Below, piece by piece: positions 4,416-27,467 of a stretch of 46,295 nt of DNA (its first letter is position 1; each line of letters begins with the position of its first letter). The position numbers and the translations under genes are program-made. Origin of the DNA: Rhodospirillales bacterium (GTDB taxonomy: Bacteria > Pseudomonadota > Alphaproteobacteria > Rhodospirillales > JAPHRK01); assembly GCA_026196105.1 (NCBI GenBank), contig JAPHRK010000048.1, positions 1 through 46,295 on the forward strand. The letters run 5' to 3'. The notes beneath the pieces are model-generated. The model worked only from the letters and a program-made list of their open reading frames with translations. It had not been told where the DNA came from and ran no database searches.

Positions 4416-4433
4416 ATAGAAAAGGAATTCACT

Positions 4434-9113: not shown

Positions 9114-9377
9114 CTACCCATTTGCCACCATATGTAAAACATCGCCATGACAAGCCGCTGGAGCGCACCAGCACACCAAATGCTTGCCACGCAGTTCGCG
9201 CTTGATAACCGCCTGAAGTTCCGGACGGCACCCGATATACGCACTAAACTTCTCGACCACCTCCGCCCGTGATCCATCCCTGCCCATCTGAAACGGATTG
9301 CCCCATTTGCCGGGCCGTCCGATATAAACAGCGTTTGCCGGGGCTGTGCCTGATCGTTTGTTATGGACGCATGTCAT
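9114..9377 (-). CDS. DUF4326 domain protein
   Basis: 87 aa. The pattern YIGRPGKWGNPF, an E/D-rich middle and LRGKHLVCWCAPAACHGDVL is the DUF4326 signature, with CWCAP and CHGD supplying the conserved Cys/His residues. The biochemical role is not known; members are common on phages and plasmids. I chose the ATG at 9377 (MTCVHNKR) because GGGAG lies about eight bases upstream and the domain begins at once; an upstream GTG/ATG extension would run into the leader repeat. It is preceded by leader copy E and followed by hairpin 9061-9084. Confidence 0.85.
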   Translation of the reverse strand: MTCVHNKRSGTAPANAVYIGRPGKWGNPFQMGRDGSRAEVVEKFSAYIGCRPELQAVIKRELRGKHLVCWCAPAACHGDVLHMVANG

Positions 9378-9404
9378 CGTATTTTCTCCCGTTATGTGTT
9401 CAAT

Positions 9405-9437
9405 TACGCACAACCATTTCTCGCCTCTGCCTCTGGG
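9405..9437 (-). promoter_or_regulatory. Shared leader repeat, copy E (before DUF4326 gene)
   Basis: On the - strand this reads CAGAGGCAGAGGCGAGAAA then TGGTTGTGCG. It aligns with the purine-rich leader GAGGCGRGAAA-GGTTTGG found before five other leftward genes. It starts about 60 bp before the DUF4326 ATG. Confidence 0.6.
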
Positions 9438-9450
9438 CGTCACGAAGCAT

Positions 9451-9474
9451 CGCCTTGGCGTTCAGCCATAGGCG
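9451..9474. repeat. GGC-loop-GCC hairpin, copy 2
   Basis: Arms CGCCT/AGGCG around core TGGCGTTCAGCCAT. On the - strand its codons resemble the N-terminus of the Toprim gene (SHRLWLNAKA versus SHRLGLNAEA), so it may be a fragment of that gene as well as a structural repeat. Confidence 0.6.
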
Positions 9475-9545
9475 GTGGGAGAACTCCGGCGTTGACGGGG
9501 TAATGAGAATTGCCATCCACCCCGTGCAAGCGCAGGGCAGAAGAC

Positions 9546-9571
9546 AGCCAGCGGCGTTCAGCCGTTTGGCT
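9546..9571. repeat. GGC-loop-GCC hairpin, copy 3
   Basis: Core CGGCGTTCAGCCG (9552-9564) enclosed by AGCCA/TGGCT arms (9546-9550/9567-9571). The arm sequence is unrelated to that of copies 1 and 2 but still complementary, which argues for a conserved structure. Confidence 0.55.
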
Positions 9572-9619
9572 TTGTTCAGGATGCCTGTGAGGACTGGCAC
9601 AGCCATAGACCGGGCCGGA

Positions 9620-9643
9620 GGTTCTGGCGTTCAGCCATGAACC
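9620..9643. repeat. GGC-loop-GCC hairpin, copy 4
   Basis: Arms GGTTC/GAACC around the same core TGGCGTTCAGCCAT as copy 2. The complete replacement of both arm strands with pairing kept is the clearest covariation in the family. The 9444-9671 stretch holds no convincing gene and consists largely of these hairpins. Confidence 0.6.
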
Positions 9644-9671
9644 AATCGGCCACGGTCATGGCGTGATGGCT

Positions 9672-10394
9672 TCACCAGCTCGGGACAACACTCCAATAGT
9701 TATCTTGCAGCCGTTCGCGTTCAACGACCAAAGCCTTCCGATTGTGAAGGTGTGATTGCAACGCGCTCCGCAAGGCCGAGCGGATCGGTTTATGTTGCCC
9801 GATGTCGGGGCAAGCCTCACGAATAGAGCGACACAGCGCCAGAATATCGGTGCGGATGCTTTTAAGTTCGTCTGCAATATCCTCGATCCTGATTGAAGCA
9901 GATTCCTTCGCTTCATATTCACGGGCATCTTCGCCCGCACGTTCTGCCAGGCGGTCGGCCTCCCGGGCCACGCCAAACTGGTCATCGTTCCAGACCTCGG
10001 AGAGGTCGAGAACAAAACCGTCACTCATGCTCTCGCCATAGCCAGCGACGAACCGCTCTTGCCCTCGTTTAGAGGGTAAGCGGAAGATCGCGCCGCGAAA
10101 GGTTTCTTCGGCATAATTATCCGAATACCAGCCCGTATGGCGAAGCCGCAGGCTTTCGTCGGCCCAGCCGACAAAGCGCAGGCCAGCCTGTTCCGCGTTT
10201 TCATAGAACCGCCGTGCGGCCCGTTCAGGGTCGCTGGCGTTCATGGGACAATGTCGCGTCGTCAAAGGGCGAAAGCCCTGACGATAGACCTGACGCATGT
10301 CGCCATAATGCGGATAACGCGCAGCAAGAGCCTTCAGGCTCGTCAAGCGGTCGCGGGGTGATTTGCCCAGCAGGGCGGTGATTTTGATTTCCAT
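9672..10394 (-). CDS. Hypothetical plasmid/phage-type protein
   Basis: 240 aa from the ATG at 10394, which has GGAGG nine bases upstream; a longer frame to 10565 overlaps the SSB gene and was rejected. The middle (GWYSDNYAEETFRGAIFRLPS, then RFVAGYGES) and the acidic DLSEVWNDDQFGVAREADRLAERAGEDAREY helix resemble uncharacterised proteins of phages and plasmids that I recall only in outline. The C-terminus is a charged helical region. It lies 76 bp downstream of ssb and is probably co-transcribed. No function can be assigned. Confidence 0.75.
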   Translation of the reverse strand: MEIKITALLGKSPRDRLTSLKALAARYPHYGDMRQVYRQGFRPLTTRHCPMNASDPERAARRFYENAEQAGLRFVGWADESLRLRHTGWYSDNYAEETFRGAIFRLPSKRGQERFVAGYGESMSDGFVLDLSEVWNDDQFGVAREADRLAERAGEDAREYEAKESASIRIEDIADELKSIRTDILALCRSIREACPDIGQHKPIRSALRSALQSHLHNRKALVVERERLQDNYWSVVPSW

Positions 10395-10417
10395 GATGTG
10401 TCCCTCCATAATGAGAA

Positions 10418-10450
10418 ACGGCGGAAGCCCGAAAGCCCCCGCCGTGTGTT
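10418..10450. other. Hairpin between ssb and the next gene
   Basis: A 7-bp stem ACGGCGG/CCGCCGT (10418-10424/10439-10445) with a 14-base loop sits in the 76-bp gap after the ssb stop. The T-run lies on the + strand side, so it is not a clean terminator for the leftward operon; it could attenuate or protect the ssb transcript. Confidence 0.45.
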
Positions 10451-10470
10451 TTTGCTCAAAAAGAAGCGAC

Positions 10471-10911
10471 TCAGAACGGTATGTCGTCATCGAGGTCGGC
10501 ACCACCGCCGTAGTTGCTATAGTCGTCATCCTTGTTCGGTGGCATATCATCTGCGCCACGATCATCGAGTTTTTCCAGGAACTGGATTTGGCAACCGGGC
10601 GTAACCGCGATTTCGGTGGTGTAACGCTCGATGTTGCTCTGGTCCGTCCACTTGCGGGTGCGAAGCATACCCTGCACGGCGGTCAAGCGGCCCTTGCGAG
10701 CGTGCTTTTCCAGAACCGAAACCAATCCCTTCTGGAACGTCACCACCCGATGCCATTCCGTGCGCTTGATCCACTCGCCTGATTGTTTGTCTTTATAGCT
10801 GTGGTCGGTTGCGATGGACATGGTTGCCACCTTGTCACCGTTCTGCATTGTCCGAATGTCTGCGTCCGCGCCAAGATGCCCTACGATTGTTACGCTGTTG
10901 ATGCTATACAT
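10471..10911 (-). CDS. ssb: Single-stranded DNA-binding protein
   Basis: 146 aa. The N-terminal OB fold starts MYSINSVTIVGHLGADADIR and continues through WHRVV; the protein ends in the acidic tip DDDIPF that recruits DNA-processing partners. The linker is short and Asp/Asn-rich. The ATG at 10911 was chosen because GGAG lies nine bases upstream and the OB fold begins immediately; the longer frame runs through the leader repeat. An ssb gene reading leftward next to a possible oriT is typical of plasmid leading regions, where it coats incoming single strands. Confidence 0.95.
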   Translation of the reverse strand: MYSINSVTIVGHLGADADIRTMQNGDKVATMSIATDHSYKDKQSGEWIKRTEWHRVVTFQKGLVSVLEKHARKGRLTAVQGMLRTRKWTDQSNIERYTTEIAVTPGCQIQFLEKLDDRGADDMPPNKDDDYSNYGGGADLDDDIPF

Positions 10912-10931
10912 TGTCTTAATCTCCATTTGAT

Positions 10932-10971
10932 TGTTGAATAACACCCAAAACTTTCTCGCCTCCCCCTCTGC
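10932..10971 (-). promoter_or_regulatory. Shared leader repeat, copy D (before ssb)
   Basis: On the - strand: GCAGAGGGGGAGGCGAGAAA followed by GTTTTGGGTGTTATTCAAC. It has the same order of blocks as the leaders before the ParB-like and PAPS-reductase-like genes and ends about 20 bp before the ssb start. Confidence 0.6.
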
Positions 10972-11172
10972 ACGGTTGCCACACGCTCGATGCAGGAAGG
11001 GGAGACACAGCGGGCGCAACAAATCACCAGTGCAAAAATGCCCGGTTCATAAAAATTCTGGATTGTGAATTGATGTATCGCTGCCTGTTAAATCAGGCAC
11101 GGGATGAGAGCGAAGCGAAATCAATCAGTCACGCATGTTAAGGACAAAAAATGACTAAATGCGTTCAATTTT

Positions 11173-11376
11173 TTGAGCAGTTTTAACGCGGTAATTCGAC
11201 AACTCAGCATTGGCAAATGGTCATTCGCTGACATCAAGGCCACGATGCACCGCCTTGGTGGTAAGCCAAAAATGATGGGGGGTGCTCCATTGCCTTTTAA
11301 TTCTATTACTCTTATGGTTGCAGTAAGTAATTTGCTTCTGACGGAAAGAAAAAACGGTCGCAAGCCCAAAACCTAA
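11173..11376 (+). CDS. Possible small protein upstream of the ATPase gene
   Basis: A 67-aa frame from TTG 11173 ends 17 bp before the ATPase start, on the same strand. It contains WSFADIKATMHRLGGKPKMM and a basic C-terminus (ERKNGRKPKT), so it could be a small DNA-binding protein. There is no convincing ribosome site and no recognised family. It may be a real co-transcribed gene or the tail of something lost. Sequence between 11023 and 11172 shows nothing else. Confidence 0.3.
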   Translation: MSSFNAVIRQLSIGKWSFADIKATMHRLGGKPKMMGGAPLPFNSITLMVAVSNLLLTERKNGRKPKT

Positions 11377-11393
11377 TAACTAGGAAACTGAAT

Positions 11394-13324
11394 ATGAACG
11401 GCGCACAAGGTACTCTTTTCGATGAGCGATTCTTGCTAGAGTATGCTGGACCAATAATGCGCGACCCAAAAACTGCTTTAGTCGAACTTGTAGCAAATGC
11501 TTGGGATGCTTACGCTACGGAAGTAACCATTATATGGCCAGATAGCAATACATCGTTCAGCATCTCCGACAATGGCACTGGCATGACACCAGATGAATTT
11601 GAGCAGAGATGGAGAACCCTTGCCTATGACAGAATTAGCCATCAAGGAAAATAGCGACCCCTCCACCGGACTCACCTCTAAAAGTACAACGCACAGTCTT
11701 CGGACGTAATGGAAAAGGCCGATTAGCAGCATTTGTGTTCGCTTCACCCTACAGAGTAAGGACATGGAAAGATGGCCTTGAGATCATTTATGAAATCAAA
11801 CAACGGCTTGGAAGTGATCCTTTGGGAACCACTGAAATCAAAAAAAATGAAGATAACGTAAAAGGTCATGGGTGCGAAGTTTTTGGCTTAACACCCATGA
11901 GCATTGGATTGAGTGCGGACAACGTTCGAGAAATTCTTAGTACGCGTTTCCTGACTGACCCTAACTTTAAAGTTTCGGTAAACGGAGTTTGGGTTACGTT
12001 TGAAGATGTCCCCTCAAACTGCATAAGCGAAATGCCCATTGAAGTACCAAACCATGGAACTGCAAAATTATTAGTCATTGATAGTCAGGAGACAGACAGG
12101 ACTACAAAACAACATGGAATTGCATGGAGAGTACAAAACCGCCTTGTTGGCGAGTGTGACTGGCGATGGATGGACAATGAGAAAGTTCTTGATGGACGCT
12201 CAGTCGAAGCAAAACGCTATACGTTCATTATATTTGCAGATTTTCTTACACCCGCTGTTAATGCAGATTGGACAGGTTTCAAGACAGACCTAGCTTTATG
12301 GCAGGAAACAGACGCTGTTTTGCAAGAGGCCATTTTCACCATCATTAAAGGAATAACAGAAAAAAAACGTGCGAAAACAAAAGAAATCGTTCGAAAAGAT
12401 CATCGAAAAAAATTGAAAGCGATGCCGATTCTAAGTCGAGAGCGTTGGAACCAATTTTTAGATAATATTGTCGATGATTGCCCAAATCTTTCCGACACAG
12501 AAATTGAGCAAGTGATGAAATTGCTCACCAATATGGAAGTTGCGAAATCGCAATATAGCCTTCTCGACAAGTTACATAAACTTAGCCCGGATGATATCGA
12601 TGATTGGGATGCTGTTCTTGAGAGCTGGTCCGTGCAATCCGCCAAAATCGTGCTGGATGAAATTGAAACGCGGCTTAAGCTAATTGAGGAAATTCGAATA
12701 AAAACAGAAAGAACTGAAACGGATGAAGTTCAAGAGTTACAACCGCTGTTCAAACAGGGCTTGTGGATATTCGGTCCGCAATTCGAAAGCATCGAATTCA
12801 CCTCAAACCGCGGCATGACAAACGTAATAAAGAACCTCTTTAAAGTAGATGATACAGGTTCACGCAACCGACCCGATTTTGTTATCATTCCCGATAGCTC
12901 AGTCGGTTTCTACTCACGCCCGAGCTTCGATAAAGAATTCAACGAATCTGGCACTAGAATTTTAGTAATCGTAGAATTAAAGCGCCCCGGAATTACAATT
13001 GGCACCGAAGAAAAAAGCCAAGTATGGAAGTATGTTCGTGAACTAATAAAAAAGGGCTATATCACAAATTCAACTGAAGTATTTGGCTATGTCTTGGGCA
13101 ATAGCATTGATCCGACAGAGACAACAGAAACTACACAGCTTGATGGTCGTGTTAGAATTCGCCCAATGCTCTACGATACCTTTGTTGGTCAGGCCGAAAA
13201 GCGAATGCTTAATCTACAACAGCACGTCAAAGAAGCGCCATTTATGCAAGAAGTTCTAAAAAACCTCTATGTTGAGGACAATAATGACCAAGAAGATCTT
13301 TTGAATATGCAGACCGCCGAGTGA
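11394..13324 (+). pseudogene. GHKL (Hsp90-like) ATPase with C-terminal PD-(D/E)XK nuclease-like domain, frameshifted
   Basis: About 640 codons in two frames. The first (11394-11654) carries the N box ELVANAWDAY and G1 box DNGTGM of a Bergerat ATP-binding fold, then stops at TAG 11652. The second frame, read from about 11650, supplies the glycine-rich lid (FGRNGKGRLAAF) and continues to 13324. One extra A in the run at 11648-11651 would join them. The C-terminal part has RPDFVII and VIVELKRPG, the D...ExK layout of a nuclease reminiscent of the Shedu/DUF4263 group. It is AT-rich and opposite in direction to its neighbours, so it looks like inserted cargo, possibly defence. Inactive unless slippage or a sequencing error restores the frame. 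Confidence 0.8.
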
Positions 13325-13347
13325 ACAGCCTTCCAAAACATGTCAAT

Positions 13348-14268
13348 TTAAGCGCCCTTGATCAAATCGTCATTGAAATCCGGCAATCTTGGATAAATCA
13401 TCCGCGTTTTGACACCTTGCCTGAGCGCACGAGTTTCCAGCATTTTTGCAGCGCCCCGTCCTGCCGCGCCGTTATCTGCGGCTATTGTCAGGTTTTTTAC
13501 GACTGCCGGGATGTTGAACGCTGCCATGTGGGCGGAGCTTAGTGTTGCGGCCAGTGCCTGACCGGGGTGGGTTACGGTGAATGACAGGGTTGATTCCAGC
13601 CCCTCGCCGACCAACAGATGATGCGTATTGATTGGTCCGACCCGGGCGGCGTTGCCGTTTAGCTCTCCCAGGGCGCGGCGTTCTATCAGGTTGGCGTTTT
13701 TGTCCAGGAACATTCGATTGATGCCCGTGAACTTGCCCGCATTATTGTGTACGCCGACGATGATCGCCGGGCGGTAGGTATTGGCGGCAAACCATGCGCG
13801 GGGATGGAAGCGGAGCGCACCCATTCCTTCGCGCAGGGCAATGCCGCGCTTACCCAAGTAGCTTTCGCCCAGGGTTCCAGCCAGCGGACGGCTATCGGCG
13901 TACAGGCGTTTGGCTATATCCGTGTTGCTTGATTTTTTGCCTTTGCGCTTTGAGTTAGAGCTTTGCGGCGGTGGTACTGGCGATAATCTCAGAAAATTTG
14001 CGGCTTCGACCATCGCGCTCGATAGATCAGGCAAACCGCGTGACAACTGGATGATGTCCAGCAAGTCACCGTGTTGAGCCTCGGCTGGATCATTCCACTT
14101 GCCTGCAACGCCGGGGCCAGCAAGGCGAACGAACAGGCTCTGGCCTTTTTCGTTTTGCACATTGCCGACCTGCCAGTATCGCCCGGCCTTGCGACCATTT
14201 GGCAAATAGTAGCGACACACCGCCTCGGCGTTCAGCCCGAGGCGGTGGGAGAGTTCCGATGCTTTCAT
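13348..14268 (-). CDS. Toprim-domain primase-like protein
   Basis: 306 aa. The N-terminus (ELSHRLGLNAEAVCRYYL, then GRYWQVGN and WNDPAEAQHGDLLDII) is the usual head of plasmid Toprim proteins related to P4/TraC-type primases. The C-terminal Toprim fold shows LLVGEGLEST (catalytic Glu), LTIAADNGAAGRGAA (the D-x-D position reads ADN, unusual) and LPDFNDDL. It probably helps second-strand synthesis or primes on incoming DNA; activity is inferred. The start lies three bases after the methylase-helicase stop, with AGGAG inside that gene's end. It converges on the ATPase gene with a 23-bp gap. Confidence 0.85.
   Translation of the reverse strand: MKASELSHRLGLNAEAVCRYYLPNGRKAGRYWQVGNVQNEKGQSLFVRLAGPGVAGKWNDPAEAQHGDLLDIIQLSRGLPDLSSAMVEAANFLRLSPVPPPQSSNSKRKGKKSSNTDIAKRLYADSRPLAGTLGESYLGKRGIALREGMGALRFHPRAWFAANTYRPAIIVGVHNNAGKFTGINRMFLDKNANLIERRALGELNGNAARVGPINTHHLLVGEGLESTLSFTVTHPGQALAATLSSAHMAAFNIPAVVKNLTIAADNGAAGRGAAKMLETRALRQGVKTRMIYPRLPDFNDDLIKGA
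14221..14244. repeat. GGC-loop-GCC hairpin, copy 5 (inside the Toprim gene start)
   Basis: CGCCTCGG pairs with CCGAGGCG around the same GGCGTTCAGCC core. Here it encodes HRLGLNAEA, so coding constraint and structure coincide. It may be the source of the other copies. Confidence 0.5.
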
Positions 14269-14271
14269 GGC

Positions 14272-17200
14272 TCAAGCTCCTGTCAGCGGGAAGCGTTCCA
14301 GCACTTTCGCCAGAATTTCCTGACCACCCGCACCGACCGGAATGAAGGCACGGCGTTTGTACTGGATGATTTCGGTCATACAGCCGAAGCCTGTCAGTGT
14401 GGCGAAGATGTCCGAGCCGCCATCGAAGCTCAGTTCGACACGGTTTTCAGCCATCACCCTCGATCTGCGCAGGCGAAGCCCTCGTATCAAGGCGTATGAA
14501 TTGCCATCGTCCAGCACCGAATTCCAAACGGCCTCAAGCGAAAGTTCCGGCGCTTCCAGACCCAACGCTGTATAGAATGCTGGCAGGTCTTTCTCATGCA
14601 GCACCCGGCCCAACAATCTGCGGCTATCGTCGGTTTGCAGGCGGTAGATACGCAAGCTGCCACGGCCCATACGATCCCAGATCGGCAGCAACAACCCTGT
14701 CACCAGATAGAACGACGATGTATGGAACTCTGGCAATGCCGCCAGTTCCGTTTCCCATGCTTCCTTGAAGCGATAGAGGGCTACTTCCTCCCATTTAGAG
14801 GTCATCAGTTCGATCTCGGTCATGCTGTCGGAGTCCAGTGGCCTAACCAGACGGACGCAAGGTTGCACCGCTCCTTCCACGGTCATGCGACTACGGCCCG
14901 GAACCTGCAATGCTGCCCGACCTGATTTTGCATTGACCAGGAACTTCGCATCCTCAGAGTGACGCGCCACCACGTCTTGAAACGGCAACGGTGTCAGCTT
15001 GTCCTTGCGGGTGATTTTCAGGCTGCTTGTTTTTGCTCCGGTGCGGCCATGCGTGAACACTTCGCGGGTTTCCGCCACGGTGAAGCTGTGCGCTTGCAGC
15101 GTCTCCACGCCAACATCCAAACCACCACTGGCCCGCATTCCTTCAAGGATTTGTTCCATCACCGTCTCGAAGGCTTCAAAGATGCTGTTCTGCCGAGCAA
15201 TGGTCAGGGCCAGCACCCGGTTAAGAAAGCGGCTCATGGGCGGCAGTTCCTCGCGTACCGATCCATCGCCATCAAGCAGCGACAGGCCCGTTTGCTGCTG
15301 GAAGGTCTCCAGCGAACAATTTTCGACCTCGCCGCGCACAATCTGGCGATAAAGCTGGCGCAGTGCGGCGCGGGCATACGGGCTTTCCAGATTGTCTTCT
15401 GATCTGAACATGCCCTGCCCTCCGGTCTGGCGCTGGCCCTTGGTGATCGCGCCCAGAGTGTCCAGCCTTCTGGCGATGGTCGAGAGAAACCGCTTTTCGC
15501 CCTTCACATCGGTTGCGACCGGGCGGAACAGCGGCGGGCAGGATTGATTGGTGCGGTTGGAGCGGCCCAGGCCCTGAATAGCGGCATCGGCCCGCCAGCC
15601 CGGTTCCAGCAAGTAATGCACCCGGCGGCGCGAGTTCTTGGCATCCAGATCGGCATGGTACGAGCGCCCGGTGCCACCAGCGTCGGAGAATATCAGGATG
15701 CGCTTTTCGTCATCCATATAGGCCTGAGCATCCGAGAGGTTGCTGGAGCCAGGGCGCTTCTGGACTTTGACAAGCCCTTCTTCTCGAATCAAACGAAGTT
15801 TGCGCCCGGTGACTTCGGACACATTGTCTGTGCCAAAATGGTGCAGGATTTGATCCAGCGCAGTCGGCACGGCTGGCAACCCGGCCAGATGCTCGATCAT
15901 GGCATCGCGCTTGGCTTCGGCGGCGCGGTTGAACACCGGATTACCCTCGGCATCGAACATGGGGCGTGAGAGCTCAACACCGTCTTCGTCGGTATAAACC
16001 TCGAACAGTTGGGTCGGGAACGAGTTGGCCAGATAATCCAGCACGTATTCACGGGGCGTAATATCGACGTTTAAATCCTGCCATTCGCTGGTTGGGATAT
16101 CGGCAAGACGGCGTTCCAGCAAGGCTTCGCCCGTGGATACCAGTTGCACGATCACCGCGTCACCGCGTTCGATGTCGGCCTTGATGGCCTTGATGAGCGA
16201 TGGGCATTTCATGGCGGTGAGCATGTGGTTGAAGAAGCGTTGTTTTGAGCTTTCAAACGCCGATAGTGCTGCGGCCTTGGCGTTCTTATTCAACGTTCCG
16301 TCCTCGCTGGAGATGTTCAGGGCTTCCAGCGCGGCTTGCAGGTTGTTGTGGATGATGTGATAGGCTTCCGCAAAACTGTCATAAATGCCAATTTGATCTG
16401 CGCTCAGCGCATGTTCGAGAATATCAACCTCAACCCCGTCATAACTGAGTGAACGCGCCGTATAGAGGCCCATTGCCTTGAGATCACGGGAGATGACTTC
16501 CATCGCCGCCACCCCGCCCGCGTCCATCGCCTGCACAAAGCCGGCACGGGTTTTAAACGCAGTGTCTTCACCCCACAAGCCAAGCCGTTCGGCGTAAGCC
16601 AGATTGCTCACATGGGTGGCTCCGGTCGCAGAAACATACGCAACGCGAGCCATCGGCAAAGCCCGTTGCAAGCGCAAGCCCGCCTGCCCCTGCTTCGATG
16701 CGGTCTTGATGCCACGATCACCTTTTGACGATGTGGCGTTGGCCAGCGCGTGGGATTCATCAAACATCAACGGGCCATCGAAGTCCGGCCCCAGCCATTC
16801 GACGATCTGTTCCAGCCGCGATGTTTTGCCCTGCCTTGCGGATGAGCGCAGCGTACCGTAGGTCAAAAACAAAATGCCGTCCGTCATCTGGATCGGCTGG
16901 CCCTGCTTGAACTTGGACAGCGGCACCACTTGCCTCGGATCGCCACCCAACGCCGCCCAATCCCGGCGAGCATCTTCCAGTAGTTTGTCGTTCTTACTCA
17001 CCCACAAGGCGCGTTTGCGACCCTTGAGGCGGTTATCGAGAATAATCCCGGCCACCTGCCGCCCTTTGCCACAACCCGTACCATCGCCAAGGAACCAGCC
17101 CTGCCGGAATTGCACCGAGCGCACCTTGTTTTCGGCTCCGGCTTCCATCTCGCTTTCACCAGCCAGATCATGATGCTGGTTCACCGCCCATTCGCCGGGG

Positions 17201-18636
17201 AGGATGTTGCTGTGGGCTTCACCAGCGTAGATGATGCTTTCGAGCTGTGCGTCCGACAAAATGCCATCGGTAATCAGGCGTTTTGGGAGGTCTGGCACAT
17301 AAGTTGGCTTGGGCGGAGCCACAGAAGCCATTGCCGCCGATTGCACCAGCGATGTGGGATGGGGGTTGGCCCCTTCAATACTTACCGACTGCGGAGCGTA
17401 GGTCTCGTACAGACAGTCTTGCAGTTCCTCGCTCGGTGCCTGCCAATCCAGCGTTTCAAACGCCAGCGGCAGAGCGTCGGTAATGTCGATGGGTTTGGGT
17501 TTTTCGGTTACGGGCGCGGATATGGTTTTGAGCGCCGGAGCTTTGGTGGGCTTGATCTCGGCAATCTTGCCTTCAACCGCCAAGCGATCCGGCACGTAGC
17601 GTTTCACCAGACGCAACAAGTCAGCCGTGCTGTTGACCAACTCCGGCACATAGCCCGAAAAATCCTTCGGATCATCAGCCGGAAGTTTGTCGATGATGGT
17701 CAGACGGGTCTCGAAGCTGGTGCCATGCTTGGCGTAGATTTTACCGGCCAATGGAGCCGAGAACACGATCTGACCGATCCCCTGAAGCCGTACAAACGCC
17801 TCGCGCCATTTGGGACTGTCAGGCGCAAAGTTCCGCCCGGTGATCGTCACCAACCGCCCACCTTCCGCCAAGCGGTTCAGCGCAGAGAACACATGCCGCC
17901 CGGCCACTGCCGGTGATGTCTTGGTCATGGTCGGCGATGTGGAAAACGGCGGGTTCATCAACACCACAGACGGCACAAACCCGCGTGGTAGCAGATCGTC
18001 AATATACTCGGCGTTATGATCGGAAACCGCGACATCGGGGAACATCTGTTTCAGCAAGGCGCGGCGTTTGGGTTCAAGCTCGTTAATCCGCAAGCCAGCC
18101 GTGCCACCTTCGGCAAACAAAGCCAGCAGCCCGGTGCCAGCCGAAGGTTCCAACACCACATCATCGGCCCCGAGCCTCGCGGCCTGTGCGACAACATAGC
18201 CAAGCGGCAACGGTGTCGAGAATTGCTGCCAGCGCTGCGAAATCTCCGAGCGCCGGGTTTGCGTCGCCATCAAAGATTGGAGTTTCTCAAGTGTCGCCAG
18301 CACTGCCAGAGGTTCACGCCGGGCCAGAGCATCACGATACTGGCGCACGAACAGCAGCCCGGCGAGTTCCTGGGCCTCGTAAACGTCCTTCCAATTCCAT
18401 GCGCCTTCAGAGTCCGATCCGCCAAACGCCGACACCATCATCGAGCGCAAGGTCTTTGCATCCAGAGCCTGCCCCTGGCACAACACCGCCAGCAATGCTT
18501 TGGCGGCAGAAATGAGCTGCAAAGCGCGATCCGGCTGGCGGACTTCGGACGTGCGTGAAAACAAGTCACCATCCAGAACGGACGGCGGCGGGGATGAAGT
18601 GGGTGATGTAAGGGCTGCGGTTTGAGCTTGGGTCAT
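14272..18636 (-). CDS. Giant methyltransferase-helicase (strawberry-notch family)
   Basis: 1454 aa. The start at 18636 has GGAGG six bases upstream. An N-terminal N6-adenine-methylase-like fold shows VLEPSAGTG at about 163-171 (SAM loop) and a VVLMNPPFS catalytic motif at about 224-232. A superfamily 2 ATPase of the Sbno type follows: GDGTGCGKGRQ P-loop at about 519, DESHAL at about 626 and the arginine-finger-like GLGRSNRTNQ near 1022. Such fusions are common on alphaproteobacterial plasmids and phages; methylation to evade host restriction during transfer is a reasonable guess, not shown. The Toprim gene starts three bases after its stop. Confidence 0.9.
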   Translation of the reverse strand: MTQAQTAALTSPTSSPPPSVLDGDLFSRTSEVRQPDRALQLISAAKALLAVLCQGQALDAKTLRSMMVSAFGGSDSEGAWNWKDVYEAQELAGLLFVRQYRDALARREPLAVLATLEKLQSLMATQTRRSEISQRWQQFSTPLPLGYVVAQAARLGADDVVLEPSAGTGLLALFAEGGTAGLRINELEPKRRALLKQMFPDVAVSDHNAEYIDDLLPRGFVPSVVLMNPPFSTSPTMTKTSPAVAGRHVFSALNRLAEGGRLVTITGRNFAPDSPKWREAFVRLQGIGQIVFSAPLAGKIYAKHGTSFETRLTIIDKLPADDPKDFSGYVPELVNSTADLLRLVKRYVPDRLAVEGKIAEIKPTKAPALKTISAPVTEKPKPIDITDALPLAFETLDWQAPSEELQDCLYETYAPQSVSIEGANPHPTSLVQSAAMASVAPPKPTYVPDLPKRLITDGILSDAQLESIIYAGEAHSNILPGEWAVNQHHDLAGESEMEAGAENKVRSVQFRQGWFLGDGTGCGKGRQVAGIILDNRLKGRKRALWVSKNDKLLEDARRDWAALGGDPRQVVPLSKFKQGQPIQMTDGILFLTYGTLRSSARQGKTSRLEQIVEWLGPDFDGPLMFDESHALANATSSKGDRGIKTASKQGQAGLRLQRALPMARVAYVSATGATHVSNLAYAERLGLWGEDTAFKTRAGFVQAMDAGGVAAMEVISRDLKAMGLYTARSLSYDGVEVDILEHALSADQIGIYDSFAEAYHIIHNNLQAALEALNISSEDGTLNKNAKAAALSAFESSKQRFFNHMLTAMKCPSLIKAIKADIERGDAVIVQLVSTGEALLERRLADIPTSEWQDLNVDITPREYVLDYLANSFPTQLFEVYTDEDGVELSRPMFDAEGNPVFNRAAEAKRDAMIEHLAGLPAVPTALDQILHHFGTDNVSEVTGRKLRLIREEGLVKVQKRPGSSNLSDAQAYMDDEKRILIFSDAGGTGRSYHADLDAKNSRRRVHYLLEPGWRADAAIQGLGRSNRTNQSCPPLFRPVATDVKGEKRFLSTIARRLDTLGAITKGQRQTGGQGMFRSEDNLESPYARAALRQLYRQIVRGEVENCSLETFQQQTGLSLLDGDGSVREELPPMSRFLNRVLALTIARQNSIFEAFETVMEQILEGMRASGGLDVGVETLQAHSFTVAETREVFTHGRTGAKTSSLKITRKDKLTPLPFQDVVARHSEDAKFLVNAKSGRAALQVPGRSRMTVEGAVQPCVRLVRPLDSDSMTEIELMTSKWEEVALYRFKEAWETELAALPEFHTSSFYLVTGLLLPIWDRMGRGSLRIYRLQTDDSRRLLGRVLHEKDLPAFYTALGLEAPELSLEAVWNSVLDDGNSYALIRGLRLRRSRVMAENRVELSFDGGSDIFATLTGFGCMTEIIQYKRRAFIPVGAGGQEILAKVLERFPLTGA

Positions 18637-18654
18637 GGGGAACCTCCGTTGGTT

Positions 18655-18717
18655 ATTGCCGAAGGCTCTCCTCGCCCCCGGCTTGTTCCCCAAAACCTTT
18701 CCGGCCTTTAACTCTCA
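18655..18717 (-). promoter_or_regulatory. Shared leader repeat, copy C (before the methylase-helicase)
   Basis: The - strand reads GAGAGTTAAAGGCCGGAAAGG, TTTTGGGGAAC and, further on, GGAGAGCCTTCGGCAAT. The last block matches the GAAGCCTTCCCGGCAAT segment of copy B, so the homology covers at least 60 bp. Confidence 0.6.
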
Positions 18718-18754
18718 AAAAAACACCGCCCACGGTGTTAACCGGGGCGGCATA
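18716..18754 (-). terminator. Rho-independent terminator of the UvrD-like gene
   Basis: On the - strand GCCGCCCCGGTT...GTGGGCGGTG forms a GC-rich stem with an inner CGGTT-AACACCG arm and is followed by TTTTTTT. It lies about 65 bp after the helicase stop. A near-identical terminator sits at 21650-21682. Confidence 0.75.
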
Positions 18755-18818
18755 AAGGACTTAACGTCCAGTCAGATCAAATTATATTAGCACTTCACCC
18801 AAAGCTGAAATTCCTTCT

Positions 18819-21518: not shown

Positions 21519-21649
21519 GCTTCCCCCTAACTAGCTGAGCAGGACCTTCATTCCAAGGCTCTCAACTTTTCAGAGAATACTAACAACACTACCATTGATG
21601 GCAACGTATATTTGGTTAATACCAAGCGAGAAACCCTGCACCCAAAAGA

Positions 21650-21682
21650 AAAACCGCCCACGGTAAAAACCGGGGCGGTTAT
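21650..21682 (-). terminator. Rho-independent terminator after the 92-aa gene
   Basis: On the - strand ACCGCCCCGG...GTGGGCGGT forms the stem, followed by TTTTTC, about 30 bp after the stop at 21709. It is very similar to the terminator at 18716-18754, so the two may flank an inserted segment carrying the helicase gene. Confidence 0.75.
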
Positions 21683-21708
21683 TTCGGTAAAATTGAATGT
21701 TTCGATAT

Positions 21709-21987
21709 TCACGACGCTTGCTGCAATTCCATATTGAAATAAAGGGACTTTGTTTTTGCATCAAACCCGGCTGGCTTGCGCCCCTGAACAAGGCGAATAC
21801 TTGCCTGACAACCTTTGCCATGTTCAGTGGCGAATGCCGTGGCTTTAGCGACAGCTTGGTCAGTGGTTGCGACCTGGAATTCTTTTTTTGGAAACTCTTG
21901 CCCAAAATCGAACGAAGTGACGAAGAAGCCCCGTTCCAGCTTTGCCGGATATAGGGTAACGGTGAAGTCGCGTAGTTTTTTGGTCAT
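21709..21987 (-). CDS. Small hypothetical plasmid protein
   Basis: 92 aa from ATG 21987, with AGGAAA about eight bases upstream; the longer frame overlaps the DUF2958 gene and was rejected. Strand-rich start (KLRDFTVTLYPAKLERGFFVTSFDF) followed by a helix (DQAVAKATAFATEHGKG) and another strand. No family recognised. It follows the DUF2958 gene by 16 bp and is probably in the same operon. Confidence 0.7.
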   Translation of the reverse strand: MTKKLRDFTVTLYPAKLERGFFVTSFDFGQEFPKKEFQVATTDQAVAKATAFATEHGKGCQASIRLVQGRKPAGFDAKTKSLYFNMELQQAS

Positions 21988-22003
21988 GATTTTTGTTTCC
22001 TGT

Positions 22004-22342
22004 TCAAGAAAGGTTATCAACGATATGGCCTGCTTTAGCTGCGGCTTCCACGTATACTGACATGGAGGTGCTCGCCTCGAAAAAGCGGTCTCGCTCCAAC
22101 CCAAGGCCCGTTTGGTTATTGCGGAAGTTTTCGAGGTCAACCCGACTCACAGGCCCTAATTCAGGCGACCCCATGCCTAAATCACACAATCCGTAGAATA
22201 TCCCATCGGCATCCAATTCTGAGAGCAACCATGTGGCCGATCCCATTGGGTTGAATATTTTGACCACGGGTGGGTGGTCCTGATCGCGGTTGCGGCCATT
22301 GGCTAACAGCTTTTGTTCGAGTGCTTTGGTTAAAAGTTTCAT
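22004..22342 (-). CDS. DUF2958 domain protein
   Basis: 112 aa. KLLTKALEQKLLANG, VVKIFNPMGSATWLLSELD, GLCDLGMGSPELGPVS and LGLERDRFF form the full DUF2958 signature. Members are common on conjugative elements, often beside ParB-like and antirestriction genes, and their reaction is unknown. AAGGA lies about eight bases before the ATG. The leader repeat (copy F) lies just upstream, in the gap after the ParB-like gene. Confidence 0.9.
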   Translation of the reverse strand: MKLLTKALEQKLLANGRNRDQDHPPVVKIFNPMGSATWLLSELDADGIFYGLCDLGMGSPELGPVSRVDLENFRNNQTGLGLERDRFFEASTSMSVYVEAAAKAGHIVDNLS

Positions 22343-22385
22343 CGGCGCATTCCTTGAGTGAGTGAAAGGGTAAAACCTCGACTTT

Positions 22386-22429
22386 TCCGTTCGGTTTCCC
22401 CCTTCCCTATCCGCCTCACACTCTCTGCC
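22386..22429 (-). promoter_or_regulatory. Shared leader repeat, copy F (before DUF2958 gene)
   Basis: On the - strand: GCAGAGAGTGTGAGGCGGAT then AGGGAAGGGGGAAACCGAAC. This is the most divergent member, but it keeps GCAGAG, GAGGCGG and the purine run in order. Confidence 0.45.
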
Positions 22430-24327
22430 TATTCAGCCGCCGGAAGGCAGAATGCGTCGGGTAGTTCATTTTCAACAGTTGGCACTTCGGCAAGCGGCTG
22501 GTCGTGGTTGACCAGATAAGCCATGCCTTCGGGCAACCACCGGGCGGCGATTGCGGCTTGCTCCGGCGTTACACCGGGGGTGCGGTTTCCGTTGAAGTTG
22601 GCTTCCAGCGTGTCAGCCAAAACATCCTTCTTTTCACCAGAGTGGTTCTTGGCCCACTTTTCACCCAGCACAACGGCTGCGATTTCCAGTGCGCGGGCCT
22701 TGGTGACACGTTTGAAGAAGTTCTCGGCGTTTGGTCGCCAGTGCGCTGCCGTGTCGATGTTAAGTCTGCGCCCGATAACCTCGTGCAGATCGTTGCCGCC
22801 AACCCCGCCAAGCCGCCCCTGCATGGTCAATGCTGTGCAATGAGCGAACAGGCGTTGCTTATCCTCCATCGACATAGCTGAAAGGGCTTTGAACCCCGGT
22901 ACAGGTGCCAGTTCCAGCCAGCTAATGTCGATCTCAGGCGATAGTTCCGCGCCCGTGGTATTGAAGCGTTCCGACCAGTTATATGGCAGGGTTGTCGTGA
23001 AGTTTATATCCAGCGGCTTGCCGGACATATAACCCACCTTCAACGTGGCATGGGCGATGGTGAACAACATCATGTCGAAGGCACAATCGAAGTCCCGCGC
23101 AAGATGTTTCTGAGCGATTTCCAGCCGGGTGTTGCCAAGGTCTTCCAGTAGCTTTGCACTATAGGTGCCGGATGCCTTGGTTTTCGCGTTAGGGTCGGCC
23201 TCCTGATCTTCGGGTAACACCAAACCGCGCCGAACTTGCAAGCTACCATCATGGTTGAGCGAAATCATGCAGCCAGCCCGAGCCAGGTCTTCGGGTTCAT
23301 AAGCCTTCAGGCTATTTTCAAGAGCTTCTTCCTTGTCCTGAAGTTTCTGGTACGCTTCCTCGTCTTCCGGGCTAAGGTCATCATCCATATCCATCGTTTG
23401 ATAAAGCTCCAAACCGTCCTGAATTTTTTTGGACTCAGCTTCCTGTTCCGGGGTCGGTTCGATATTTTTCGGATAGACGTTCTGGCATTCCTTTGTCGCC
23501 TCGTAAGAAAATTCAGGCGCGGATTGCATCCATTTCCAACCTTCGGCGGTTTGCAGTTCTGTGGCGGCTGCACTCAACTTCTCCTGACACAACCGCATAA
23601 CCAAAGCGCGATCTTCCAGATATATTGAAGAATTTCCCTGGCTGAACAAATCTTGCATGGAGGCTCCGCCTGCGGCTTCATAGGCTTCCAAGCCGATAAA
23701 TTGCACGAACCTGGAGTTGGCGGCAATTTTCTCATCAGTCAGCAAGCGCCGGACATGATGAGCGTGAAGGTGGCCGTCTTTGAGCTGTTCCCAGACAGCC
23801 AGTTGTTCGCCGTTATCATCCGTAACGGCAAAAGCCATAAGCGTTTCAAGGTTGATTTTGTCTTCGCGACAAGCCTCACGGATTTCCGGGACCACCCGAC
23901 CAAGCCGCAAGCGTTGGCGCACCAGTGTTTCGGTGTTGCCAAAACGGTTAGCGATTTCTATGACGCTCAAGCCTTGATCTGACAATGCGGCGAAGGCTTC
24001 AAACTGGTCGAGTGCGTGCATGGACAGGCGAACGATGTTTTCTGCCAGTGATACTTCCTGCGGATCACCATCATGCACCAGACAGGCGACAGGGTGATCG
24101 GCACCGAGTTCGCCATCACGGACAAGGCTCTGCAAAGCCACCAAGCGACGGCCTCCGGCCAACACTTCGTAGCGGCCATTCTCAAGCGGGCGAACGATCA
24201 GGTTTTCAAGCAATCCATGTGAAAAAATAGAAGCCGCAAGCTCGGCTTGTTCGGCAGCGGTTGGCGGGGTTTTGCGAACGTTCAACGGGGATAGATCAAG
24301 GTCTTTTAGCGGAATATTGATATTCAT
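22429..24327 (-). CDS. Large ParB/RepB/Spo0J-family protein
   Basis: 632 aa; ATG 24327 with GGAGC about eight bases upstream. The N-terminal ParB/sulfiredoxin-like nuclease fold (about 1-110) has LAGGRRLVALQ and SLAENIVRLSMHALDQFEAF; the helix-turn-helix follows (LSVIEIANRFGNTETLVRQRLRLG, about 120-145). The 400-residue C-terminal region is helical and acidic and not recognised. It is much larger than a partition ParB and sits apart from parA, so I think it is a leading-region ParB-like protein, possibly a CTP-using or nuclease-type regulator. A ParB-like protein next to a PAPS-reductase-like protein also recalls the IbrA/IbrB pairing. Confidence 0.9.
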   Translation of the reverse strand: MNINIPLKDLDLSPLNVRKTPPTAAEQAELAASIFSHGLLENLIVRPLENGRYEVLAGGRRLVALQSLVRDGELGADHPVACLVHDGDPQEVSLAENIVRLSMHALDQFEAFAALSDQGLSVIEIANRFGNTETLVRQRLRLGRVVPEIREACREDKINLETLMAFAVTDDNGEQLAVWEQLKDGHLHAHHVRRLLTDEKIAANSRFVQFIGLEAYEAAGGASMQDLFSQGNSSIYLEDRALVMRLCQEKLSAAATELQTAEGWKWMQSAPEFSYEATKECQNVYPKNIEPTPEQEAESKKIQDGLELYQTMDMDDDLSPEDEEAYQKLQDKEEALENSLKAYEPEDLARAGCMISLNHDGSLQVRRGLVLPEDQEADPNAKTKASGTYSAKLLEDLGNTRLEIAQKHLARDFDCAFDMMLFTIAHATLKVGYMSGKPLDINFTTTLPYNWSERFNTTGAELSPEIDISWLELAPVPGFKALSAMSMEDKQRLFAHCTALTMQGRLGGVGGNDLHEVIGRRLNIDTAAHWRPNAENFFKRVTKARALEIAAVVLGEKWAKNHSGEKKDVLADTLEANFNGNRTPGVTPEQAAIAARWLPEGMAYLVNHDQPLAEVPTVENELPDAFCLPAAE

Positions 24328-24362
24328 TGTTTTAAGCTCCAGCGAGTGGCCGGGTCGGGCTT

Positions 24363-24416
24363 TCCTCCCCTGAACAACCACTCAACCAAACCTTTTCCCG
24401 CCTCCACCTCTCGCCT
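24363..24416 (-). promoter_or_regulatory. Shared leader repeat, copy A (before the ParB-like gene)
   Basis: On the - strand: GAGAGGTGGAGGCGGGAAAA, GGTTTGGTTGAGTGGTTGTTC and AGGGGAGGAAAG. The middle block is identical to copy B over TTTGGTTGAGTGGTTGT, the strongest pairwise match of the family. Confidence 0.7.
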
Positions 24417-24424
24417 GTTTTGGC

Positions 24425-24691
24425 CTACCACAGCAATATTTGTAGATCAGCGTGTTCCGGGGGCTTGCTCCAGCCCTTGACCACTTCGGCAACCGCCTGC
24501 TTTTCCAAACTGGCGGGACTGAAGCCTGAACGCAGATCGTCCACCAGCTTGGTAAAGTCACCGTCAGACAGCTTCTTGAGCAGCCGCACGGCCACATTCA
24601 GCAAATCTTCCTCGGAATATCTGGCGCAACCAAAACCACTGGCGAAAATGCCAAACTTTGTATCGCGGATTGTCAGGGTTGTTTCGGTCAT
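24425..24691 (-). CDS. Small hypothetical protein between the PAPS-reductase-like and ParB-like genes
   Basis: 88 aa. The ATG at 24691 overlaps the stop of the upstream PAPS-reductase-like gene (ATGA), indicating translational coupling. It begins TETTLTIRDTKFGIFASG and has an amphipathic helix (EEDLLNVAVRLLKKLSDGDF). No family recognised; coupling suggests that it works with its upstream neighbour. Confidence 0.7.
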   Translation of the reverse strand: MTETTLTIRDTKFGIFASGFGCARYSEEDLLNVAVRLLKKLSDGDFTKLVDDLRSGFSPASLEKQAVAEVVKGWSKPPEHADLQILLW

Positions 24692-25494
24692 TGTCGTTGT
24701 CTCCTGGGTTTAGGTTGAGCCATGACCCCGGTGTAATCCTCAAGGAATTGCGGGGGCTGGCCTTTTCTGGGCATGATGAATGCGTGATCGATCTGGCGTT
24801 CCAGCGCGACATATTGAGCGTAGGGTTCCGGGTTCAGTTCAGCCGCGATCCGCAGATCCGCACGACTGGCCATGATGCAAAACATGCATGACAGGCGGGA
24901 CATGCCAGCGGTGTAAGCCCAATGAGGCTGCTCTCCGGCCCGCTCGATCTCGGCGAACACTTCGGCCTCACTCATCTGGAAGATCGGCAACCAGTCAAAC
25001 CAGTTTCGACCAGCCTTACTATTGCGCTCTGACCGCTTGAATGGCACGGCCTTGGCCCTGCGCGTGCTTTCCTCGGCGCGAAGCCCCATGCAGTTGACGA
25101 TCAAACCATTAAAGCGCGGATTGGCTTTCAAAAAGCGGCGAATGTCGCGTTCAATGGGGTTACGCTTCAAATCCGATGTGCATTGCCGGTGCGTCGGGCC
25201 GGGCCACATGCCGCGATTTTCGACCATCTGAAGGAAGGTTTTCACCGATGTTGTCTTGATCGGCACCAGCGGAGCGACAGTGGCGACAACATGCTCCCAG
25301 GTTCCCGCCCAATCAGCACCGGGCAGATCGGCGTGGATCACCAAAAGCTGATCGGCTGGCACAAGGGTGCGAAGGCGCAAGAACATGGCCTGGCTGTCCT
25401 TGCCGCCCGAATGATTGACGACAAACAGCGCACCTTGCGCGATAAGCTCCTCAATCACCGGGAATTCTGACGTTTCATAGAAATCAAATTGCAT
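24688..25494 (-). CDS. PAPS reductase/PP-loop family protein
   Basis: 268 aa. The PP-loop ATP-pyrophosphatase motif HSGGKDSQ lies at 28-35, and RQCTSDLKRNPI, GLRAEES and SCMFCIMAS supply the cysteines and basic residues of phosphoadenosine-phosphosulfate-reductase-like enzymes (relatives include DndC, IbrA and phage enzymes). It may adenylate and modify a nucleobase, nucleotide or protein; the substrate is unknown. The ATG at 25494 puts the domain at the N-terminus; it has no strong ribosome site, and earlier TTG codons would read through the leader. It is first in the run leading to the ParB-like gene. Confidence 0.85.
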   Translation of the reverse strand: MQFDFYETSEFPVIEELIAQGALFVVNHSGGKDSQAMFLRLRTLVPADQLLVIHADLPGADWAGTWEHVVATVAPLVPIKTTSVKTFLQMVENRGMWPGPTHRQCTSDLKRNPIERDIRRFLKANPRFNGLIVNCMGLRAEESTRRAKAVPFKRSERNSKAGRNWFDWLPIFQMSEAEVFAEIERAGEQPHWAYTAGMSRLSCMFCIMASRADLRIAAELNPEPYAQYVALERQIDHAFIMPRKGQPPQFLEDYTGVMAQPKPRRQRQ

Positions 25495-25540
25495 GGCGGC
25501 ACCCGGCGTTGTTGGAAGAAATGCGATTGCCGGGAAGGCT

Positions 25541-25595
25541 TCACCTCCCTCCAGACAACCACTCAACCAAATCTCTGCCGCCTCTAACTCTGGGT
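25541..25595 (-). promoter_or_regulatory. Shared leader repeat, copy B (before PAPS-reductase-like gene)
   Basis: On the - strand: AGAGTTAGAGGCGGCAGAG, ATTTGGTTGAGTGGTTGTC and TGGAGGGAGGTGAAGCC. It matches copy A over 17 consecutive bases and copy C in its downstream part. Confidence 0.7.
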
Positions 25596-25601
25596 GCCGA
25601 C

Positions 25602-25634: not shown

Positions 25635-25738
25635 AGGAGTGCTGCAAATGTGTTTACTTCAGTTATAGATAAATGAAGTTCTTGGGAGGGACGGTTCAAC
25701 CGGTAACTTTCAGGGTAGTTGTCGCTTTTAGTTAAATA

Positions 25739-27463: not shown

Positions 27464-27467
27464 AGAT

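Follow-up and report, generated by a model that had tools for sequence, protein, structure and literature searches.

Six plasmid genes that help incoming DNA settle in a new cell share a leader just before the start codon, and predicted folded RNA versions of this leader sit in front of such genes in plasmids of many Alphaproteobacteria. This suggests control at the RNA level rather than by a special single-stranded-DNA promoter. The stretch analysed here, called the window, is the 46,295-nt contig JAPHRK010000048.1 of Rhodospirillales bacterium (GCA_026196105.1). The initial annotation had noted the repeated leader before six leftward genes of a plasmid leading region, and we confirmed that observation and found it to be wider than stated. 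All six leaders are on the - strand beside the start codons that had been named. The features are as follows.

9375..9434 (-), leader of the DUF4326 gene: AGAGGCAGAGG box, short hairpin, Shine-Dalgarno (SD) sequence GGAG, ATG (R1 hit, E 0.0011, filters off)
9114..9377 (-), DUF4326 protein gene (PF14216, 1.8e-24)
10909..10969 (-), leader of ssb: AGAGGGGGAGGCGAGAAA box, short weak hairpin, SD GGAG, ATG (R1 hit, E 0.07)
10471..10911 (-), single-strand binding protein gene (PF00436, 2.2e-28)
18634..18715 (-), leader of the methylase-helicase gene, beginning directly after a terminator-like hairpin with a T run (R1 hit, E 0.0075)
18717..18750 (-), terminator-like hairpin with T run abutting that leader, read by eye; a terminator search with a loop limit of 9 nt did not flag it
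14272..18636 (-), methylase-helicase (strawberry-notch type) gene (PF13872, 2.4e-120; PF13871, 4.3e-96)
22340..22424 (-), leader of the DUF2958 gene (R2 hit, E 0.0048)
22004..22342 (-), DUF2958 protein gene (PF11171, 1.7e-34)
24325..24411 (-), leader of the ParB-like gene, the predicted hairpin taking in the SD (R1 hit, E 1e-4)
22429..24327 (-), ParB-like gene (PF02195, 1.9e-7; PF17762, 6.7e-6)
25492..25591 (-), leader of the PAPS-reductase-like gene, ending at ATG 25494 (R1 hit, E 0.16)
24688..25494 (-), PAPS-reductase-like gene (PF01507, 1.8e-7, for the longer ORF to 25566) with BrxP/SspD/DndC-like matches (PADLOC BrxP 8.2e-15, SspD 1.5e-10, DndC 1.3e-6)

To test whether the repetition could arise by chance, we looked for direct repeats among the leaders. 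The ParB and PAPS leaders share TTTGGTTGAGTGGTTGT (17 nt; two copies in the window, both in leaders), and the DUF4326 and ssb leaders share GAGGCGAGAAA (11 nt). In 300 mononucleotide shuffles of the six 110-nt upstream regions, the longest word shared by any of 15 pairs averaged 8.6 and never exceeded 13. The 17-nt repeat is therefore not chance, although the 11-nt repeat alone could be. The block GAGGCGRGAAA is not specific by itself, with 6 matches in 3.9 Mb, 3 of them these leaders, against 6 for the reversed pattern.

As an independent check, we built covariance models from other genomes. Model R1 was built from 65 leaders of ParB-like genes and was run unfiltered over both strands of the window, where it had 15 hits at E<=10. 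The best five are the ParB, DUF4326, methylase-helicase, ssb, and PAPS leaders, all on the - strand and ending at a start codon, whereas the sixth (4448-4498, E 0.48) is not a leader. Model R2 was built from 72 methylase-helicase leaders and run over seven sources, and its best window hit is the DUF2958 leader. No hit lies at the starts of the ATPase, UvrD, or nuclease-like cargo genes. Single hits are weak, however, and the ssb and DUF4326 copies have only short hairpins. No window leader reaches E<=0.01 with the profile HMMs, and a filtered R1 scan of the whole assembly returned nothing.

We then asked whether or not the leader is conserved before orthologous genes in related elements, a condition the initial annotation had set for its own refutation, and found that it is. 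In 87 sequences including the window, profile searches gave 215 hits at E<=0.01, all on the leading-gene strand, in 85 of the 87 sequences (none in the window), and 72 of 85 loci have two or more. R1 gave 186 hits at E<=1 in the 87 sequences, 185 of them on that strand, its 65 training rows included. Outside the window, the leader precedes 68/70 ParB-like and 76/86 methylase-helicase genes, which are the families used for training, and 21/23 ArdC genes, 7/7 ArdB genes, 16/16 genes of an unknown family, and 10/17 DUF932 genes, which were not trained on. By contrast, it was found before 0/83 toprim, 0/73 DUF2493, 0/19 DUF6117, 0/16 DUF736, 0/9 RepA+RepC, 0/1 TraA, 0/2 VirB4, and 0/2 ParE genes. 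These counts leave out genes with under 130 nt on a side and the window's own genes, which a first count had included, and are not independent because leaders are related by descent. Related ssb (0/9) and DUF2958 (1/9) genes elsewhere lack the leader at E<=0.01, so two of the window's six are unusual carriers.

A leader shared with Gamma-, Betaproteobacteria, or cyanobacteria was rejected. In three orthologous loci, L110–L112, R1 had 0 hits at E<=10 and R2 had one at E 0.88, and no leader was seen by eye before 12 genes. A draw from the phylum gave 29 of 349 genomes, all of the same class, although the listing does not show how many of the 349 were of other classes. One exact 25-nt pattern had 0 matches in IMG/VR, which is a weak test.

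The common layout is a purine box (AGAG-NN-AGAG), a hairpin with a conserved TTGGAG/TTTGAG bulge and a purine-rich loop, the SD, and the start codon. The first four letters of the box are conserved by construction because rows were lined up on AGAG. In the ParB-type alignment, 14 of 19 pairs have changes on both sides, 91.5% of cells are paired, and 0 of 500 shuffles reach any of five measures, with slid controls 41–48% paired. In one step of the collection, the start with most GAGAG words was chosen where several ATGs were possible. From 77 methylase-helicase leaders, L011, L023 (wrong start), L039 (wrong place), L051, and L090 were left out of the alignment (72 kept), and some rows were ended at an earlier ATG. 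Because the consensus structure obtained from this alignment has 8 pairs only, the methylase-helicase leaders were judged by single folds.

To determine on which strand the structure acts, we counted single mismatches in stems. A hairpin in the transferred T-strand, if this is the template, should tolerate G.T there, which reads as A.C on the coding strand. We observed the opposite. The ratio of G-U to A-C on the coding strand was 77:11 for ParB leaders (65 leaders), 45:4 for other leaders (69), and 19:6 for methylase-helicase leaders (77), against 45:54 in 400 random windows. Leaders with G-U>A-C versus A-C>G-U numbered 40:2, 32:2, and 17:5, respectively. The coding strand also folds better, with mean z of –2.73 sense versus –1.77 antisense for ParB leaders and –1.84 versus –1.16 for methylase-helicase leaders. 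However, the methylase-helicase ratio is no stronger than that of one control, the coding stretch without leader upstream of toprim (21:8), so the case rests on the other two sets, of which the "other" leaders were picked by R1, whose structure scores G-U better than A-C. The remaining controls were 8:7 (DUF2493), 4:4 (DUF6117), 2:1 (DUF736), and 6:1 upstream of 30 assorted genes without leader. That the T-strand is the template is an assumption resting on gene orientation and, for locus L007, a nic motif.

These data bear on the proposal of the initial annotation that the leaders are early-transfer promoters. Its interpretation is partly supported. A shared regulatory leader of leading-region genes that is not found at cargo starts is supported, but a promoter of the Frpo kind is not supported. 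In the Frpo/ssi-like explanation, the T-strand folds into a hairpin that RNA polymerase reads as duplex, so that genes are expressed before second-strand synthesis. The gene set, common orientation, and repetition before each gene fit this idea, as does the lack of a promoter signal upstream, and such promoters are reported in leading regions of F-type plasmids, where they serve genes such as ssb and occur several times in one leading region (Samuel et al., 2024, PMC11541004). Those are T-strand DNA hairpins with –35/–10 elements in the structure. Here, judged by described features rather than by comparison with a known Frpo sequence, the bias is for the coding strand, the element includes the SD and ends at the start codon, and no such boxes are seen by eye in the consensus columns. 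A crude sigma-70 score inside leaders, which does not cover other promoter types, was slightly above that of shuffled sequence (6.09 versus 5.89 and 5.92 versus 5.74; best 7.5 of 11.6 possible). We consider this explanation unlikely, although a promoter function in addition to the RNA function is not excluded.

A conserved sigma-70 promoter just upstream of the purine box was also rejected. Over 200 nt in 67 ParB and 77 methylase-helicase leaders there was little information content (mostly 0–0.3, up to 0.5–0.7 at single positions next to the box) and no A+T peak (10-nt bins 0.27–0.40). Crude –35/–10 scores were near shuffled ones in two runs (ParB 6.26 versus 6.49 and 6.32 versus 6.48; methylase-helicase 6.63 versus 6.50 and 6.67 versus 6.54), with leaders lacking an SD word skipped in the first.

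We next examined pairing of the SD, again skipping leaders without an SD word. In ParB-type leaders the predicted hairpin buries the SD (unpaired 0.17 native versus 0.47 shuffled, n 64, p 2.7e-11), which favours translational control. The effect is weaker on average in ArdC, DUF932, and other leaders (0.25 versus 0.41, n 57, p 4.8e-5), and genes without leader gave 0.25 versus 0.28 (n 26). By contrast, methylase-helicase leaders place the hairpin against the SD without burying it more than chance (0.34 versus 0.36, n 53 of 78, p 0.17), so their effect may differ. In the window only the ParB leader buries its SD (bases unpaired 0.19, 0.02, 0.01, 0.82); DUF4326, ssb, methylase-helicase, and DUF2958 leave it mostly open and PAPS has no clear SD. 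A constitutive 5' hairpin for mRNA stability or standby ribosome loading, without regulation, would fit a hairpin beside the SD, purine-rich single strands, and the open methylase-helicase SD. SD burial in the ParB type and the restriction to a few functional families while neighbouring genes lack the leader speak against it, and we regard it as unlikely.

Together, these data lead us to favour, with moderate confidence, the idea that the leaders belong to one family of structured 5'-untranslated mRNA elements that control plasmid establishment and anti-defence genes in the leading regions of alphaproteobacterial conjugative elements. The sequences themselves show the common layout, the covariation of the ParB-type stem, the G-U bias that puts the structure on the coding strand, the restriction to a set of gene families, and the predicted pairing of the SD in ParB-type and, more weakly, other leaders. 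That the element is present in the mRNA, changes expression, and acts on translation is inferred from sequence alone. In this view, the stem would shut or limit ribosome access, and a shared factor or folding event, perhaps binding the conserved purine motifs, would open it when the plasmid establishes, so that scattered genes respond together. A broader reading, which we put forward only tentatively, is that one leader family, opened by one shared factor or event at plasmid entry, acts as a regulon-wide translational switch in place of the single-strand promoters of F-type plasmids. The leader would then mark unknown genes of the same regulon as anti-defence candidates, such as a ~185-aa family that carries it in 16 of 16 copies counted. 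How incoming plasmids express protective genes in time is known mainly from F-like plasmids, and a separate RNA-level solution spread over Alphaproteobacteria would be a new answer to that question and provide a sequence tag for finding unknown anti-defence genes. We found no report of it in the open-access literature, a search that leaves out most subscription papers and all bioRxiv preprints.

No Rfam family covered a leader in the sources scanned. At gathering threshold, in the window and nine loci (L007, L009, L010, L013, L037, L044, L054, L061, and L078), the only matches were a tRNA, S-element, and ctRNA, and at E<=10 three weak matches in L009 and L044 did not overlie a leader on its strand. 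The radC RNA motif (RF01754) is, as here, a candidate cis-regulatory RNA of Proteobacteria (Weinberg, 2010, PMC2864571). It lies before radC, antirestriction, methylase, and integrase genes. It has 149 model positions against 86–98 here and had no match in these scans; it also matched 0/60 relatives, but no control genome gave a match, so that search is empty. The STAXI motif (RF01728) is a repeated structured element near ssb, antirestriction, and integrase genes for which its authors also weighed ssDNA against RNA and preferred RNA, but it consists of tandem pseudoknots with frequent UUCG loops in Enterobacteriales and had no match here. SD-sequestering translational hairpins, such as riboswitch expression platforms and that of T4 gene e, likewise pair the SD inside a 5' hairpin, as in the ParB type. 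For the leaders described here no aptamer, ligand, or factor is known, and they are used before many genes of a plasmid class. Two further possibilities were rejected by eye. A loop-to-CGCUCUC pseudoknot in methylase-helicase leaders is allowed by the letters, but these hardly vary and some rows lack a partner, and a candidate conserved upstream ORF is open in locus L015 but not in L017.

Terminator-like hairpins occur within 150 nt before 29 of 78 methylase-helicase leaders, 23 of them at 16–38 nt, versus about 2.5% of random windows and 0 of 78 on the other strand. The 23 at 16–38 nt leave little room for an ordinary promoter, a point in favour of the single-strand promoter explanation, and the terminator-like hairpins leave the origin of the transcript unexplained under the mRNA leader. 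Another explanation is insulation against read-through, where the hairpin, with a terminator where present, silences transcripts from upstream and the productive mRNA starts inside the leader, lacks the 5' arm, and has a free SD, as in the fold-back inhibition of T4 gene e and IS10. SD burial in ParB-type leaders, the terminator-like hairpins upstream of methylase-helicase leaders, and the absence of an upstream promoter signal fit this. However, it needs a promoter inside a G+C-rich hairpin without a visible –10 and does not explain the conserved purine box and bulge, and ParB leaders, which bury the SD best, have an upstream terminator in only 1 of 68. We think it unlikely. An antitermination element of the put or EAR type, in which the leader RNA modifies RNA polymerase to read through terminators between leading-region genes, would fit the several leaders per locus, the terminators between genes, and the lack of a local promoter signal, but seems very unlikely. 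The element is fixed to the SD and start codon, which antitermination does not need; among 71 R1 hits examined, with those of ParB and methylase-helicase genes left out by hand, the offset was 0 in 56 of the 69 with an ORF.

To determine whether the leader sequences described in the initial annotation are present, we first examined the gene content of the window, which corresponds to bases 1–46295 of contig C64 in a 3.9-Mb assembly. The left end of the window holds genes for a TraD/TrwB-like coupling protein and a TrwC-type relaxase. These are followed by leftward genes that include DUF4326, SSB, methylase-helicase plus toprim, UvrD-like cargo, DUF2958, a ParB-like protein and a PAPS-reductase-like protein. 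The six leaders that the initial annotation placed before genes of this region are there, and its observation held. The ParB and PAPS leaders share 17 identical bases, whereas the longest shared word never exceeded 13 in 300 shuffles.

We tested whether or not the leader also occurs elsewhere. For this we compared six annotated plasmid regions and 80 genomic loci around methylase-helicase genes, the latter being the best 80 of 457 confirmed and thus a sample of close relatives. Together with the window this gave 87 sequences (1.95 Mb, individual sequences designated L007, L009 and so on), with record titles that name Mesorhizobium, Rhizobium, Bradyrhizobium, Sphingopyxis, Paracoccus, Rhodospirillales and others. 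At 74 of 84 methylase-helicase starts, the upstream 105 nt contained at least two GAGAG words. An HMM of these leaders found 101 places at E<=1, all on the leading-gene strand. Of these, 77 precede the methylase-helicase by the automated criterion used, and the other 24 include ArdB-like, ParB-like and DUF6878 genes. ParB-like genes have a shorter version of the same design. A covariance model built from 65 of these shorter leaders (R1) gave 186 hits at E<=1, its training rows included, and 185 of these were on the leading-gene strand. Profiles of both leader types gave 215 hits at E<=0.01, all on that strand and in 85 of the 87 sequences, 72 of which hold two or more.

We then returned to the window with these models. 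R1 was trained without the window and, when run unfiltered over the 46 kb, its five best hits were five of the six leaders, each ending at the start codon. The next hit, at E 0.48, is not a leader. A second model, R2, which was trained on 72 methylase-helicase leaders, had the sixth leader as its best window hit. Taken singly, the hits are weak (E 1e-4 to 0.16).

To examine which genes carry the leader, we counted gene families outside the window by tblastn. In the two families used for training, the leader was found at 68 of 70 ParB-like and 76 of 86 methylase-helicase genes. Among families that were not used for training, it was found at 21 of 23 ArdC, 7 of 7 ArdB and 10 of 17 DUF932 genes, as well as at 16 of 16 counted genes of an unknown family of about 185 aa. 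This last family is represented by L071:6258–6821 (+) and 15 relatives, for example in L009, L021, L025, L033, L054 and L060. The two copies tested (L071 and L009) had no Pfam or PADLOC match, and the family is a candidate anti-defence protein. By contrast, the leader was found at 0 of 83 toprim genes, which directly follow the methylase-helicase, and at 0 of 73 DUF2493, 0 of 19 DUF6117, 0 of 16 DUF736, 0 of 9 SSB, 1 of 9 DUF2958 and 0 of 9 RepA and RepC genes together. SSB and DUF2958 carry the leader in the window but rarely or never elsewhere in this sample. These counts indicate that the leader marks antirestriction and establishment genes, not all genes of the region. ArdC of R388 is required in the recipient and not in the donor (PMC7213743).

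To gain information about structure, we folded the 65 ParB-type leaders, and the consensus fold has 15 pairs, to which four more that take in the Shine-Dalgarno (SD) sequence can be added. Of these 19 pairs, 14 show changes on both sides. Overall, 91.5% of cells pair, compared with 41–48% when the alignment was slid, and none of 500 shuffles reached any of the five measures used. To ask which strand is folded, we folded leaders with Watson-Crick pairs only and counted single mismatches inside stems. The ratio of G-U to A-C was 77:11 for ParB leaders, 45:4 for 69 other leaders, which were not training rows of R1 but were picked by it, and 19:6 for methylase-helicase leaders, whereas 400 random windows gave 45:54. 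At genes without the leader, the ratios were 8:7 (DUF2493), 4:4 (DUF6117), 2:1 (DUF736), 21:8 (toprim) and 6:1 (30 assorted genes). The toprim stretch is coding sequence and leans the same way, so the methylase-helicase ratio by itself proves nothing, but the other two sets stand well above it. G-U on the coding strand is A-C on the template. The coding strand also folds better against dinucleotide shuffles, with mean z-scores of –2.73 versus –1.77 and –1.84 versus –1.16. Hence, the selected structure is most likely on the coding strand, that is, in mRNA. In this comparison the T-strand is taken to be the template because the genes read toward the transfer region and because, in L007, the sequence before traA has a putative RSF1010-like nic motif, placed so that the T-strand would leave through these genes. 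The Ti and RSF1010 origins are reported to be alike.

In ParB-type leaders the 5' arm is predicted to pair with the SD. In ensemble folds the SD of these leaders was unpaired with a probability of 0.17, compared with 0.47 when the leader was shuffled (n = 64, p = 2.7e-11). For the other leaders the values were 0.25 and 0.41 (n = 57, p = 4.8e-5). By contrast, there was no difference for methylase-helicase leaders (0.34 versus 0.36, n = 53) or for 26 genes without the leader (0.25 versus 0.28), and in the window only the ParB leader hides its SD. We therefore put translational control first. The repetition, conservation and structure of the leader come from the sequences themselves, whereas its action in mRNA and on translation is inferred.

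No promoter was found, since there is little conservation upstream of the purine box and crude promoter scores upstream of and inside leaders are near those of shuffled sequence. In 29 of 78 methylase-helicase leaders a terminator-like hairpin on the same strand lies within 150 nt upstream, and in 23 of these it lies 16–38 nt before the box. This compares with about 2.5% of random windows and none on the other strand, and for ParB leaders the count is 1 of 68. Upstream of the leaders at L054:8809, L062:8867, L065:2520, L068:9812 and L087:9813, strong, nearly identical terminators end 17–18 nt before the methylase-helicase leader, leaving no visible room for a promoter. In the window, a similar hairpin abuts the methylase-helicase leader (seen by eye, but not flagged by the automated search). 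These hairpins are probably terminators of the gene before, but they make the source of the transcript a real puzzle and keep alive two rival explanations, insulation against read-through and a promoter. Some genes without the leader (gene starts at L007:13249 and 15903 and at L010:18251 and 19547) have, by eye, a GCCCGGCC-N4-CGCCGGGC-like hairpin shortly before the start codon, again leaving little room for a promoter.

To assess how widely the leader is spread, we searched further genomes with R1. Matches were found in 19 of 289 genomes drawn from the class of the window and in 29 of 349 genomes drawn from its phylum, all 29 being of the same class. Stricter filters were used for these searches, so the counts are lower bounds. 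In three orthologous loci from a cyanobacterium, a Gammaproteobacterium and a Betaproteobacterium, R1 had no hit and R2 had one at E 0.88.

No Rfam 15 family reached its gathering score at a leader in the window and nine loci, and none overlay a leader on its strand at E<=10 in two loci. The nearest published ideas are the radC and STAXI motifs (Weinberg 2010, PMC2864571) and the Frpo/ssi promoters (PMC11541004). By test the leader is neither RNA family, and it fails the strand test for Frpo. The interpretation of the initial annotation is only partly supported: a shared regulatory leader of leading-region genes is supported, whereas the suggestion that the leaders could be a family of early-transfer promoter of the Frpo kind is not supported. 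The leader works most like a translational RNA leader, of which it would be a new family with an unusual job. Together, these data make us nearly certain that the repetition is real, conserved and structured, and it is likely that the leader acts as RNA. It is somewhat more likely than not that it acts on translation, whereas a shared switch linked to plasmid entry remains a tentative possibility.

Other features of the window were also seen, some of which lie beside the leaders:
18717–18750 and 21645–21678 (–), two similar terminator-like hairpins that flank the UvrD-like cargo gene, as if it sat in a slot between them (by eye).
9061–9084, 9451–9474 and 14221–14244 (–), the palindrome CGCCTATGGCTGNACGCCAAGGCG, two copies without and one with 3 mismatches (0 expected), one of which lies just upstream of the DUF4326 leader.
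4290–4430 and 25600–25660, degenerate TAGTCACTACCCGGTGACTA-like repeats before the VirC1-like gene, with a similar stretch before the PAPS leader (by eye).
25739–28199, an integrase-core (IS-type) gene and a tyrosine recombinase gene, which follow the PAPS leader and may mark the right edge of the element; beyond them lie a cytochrome b561/dihaem cytochrome gene and, at 46202–46275, a tRNA.
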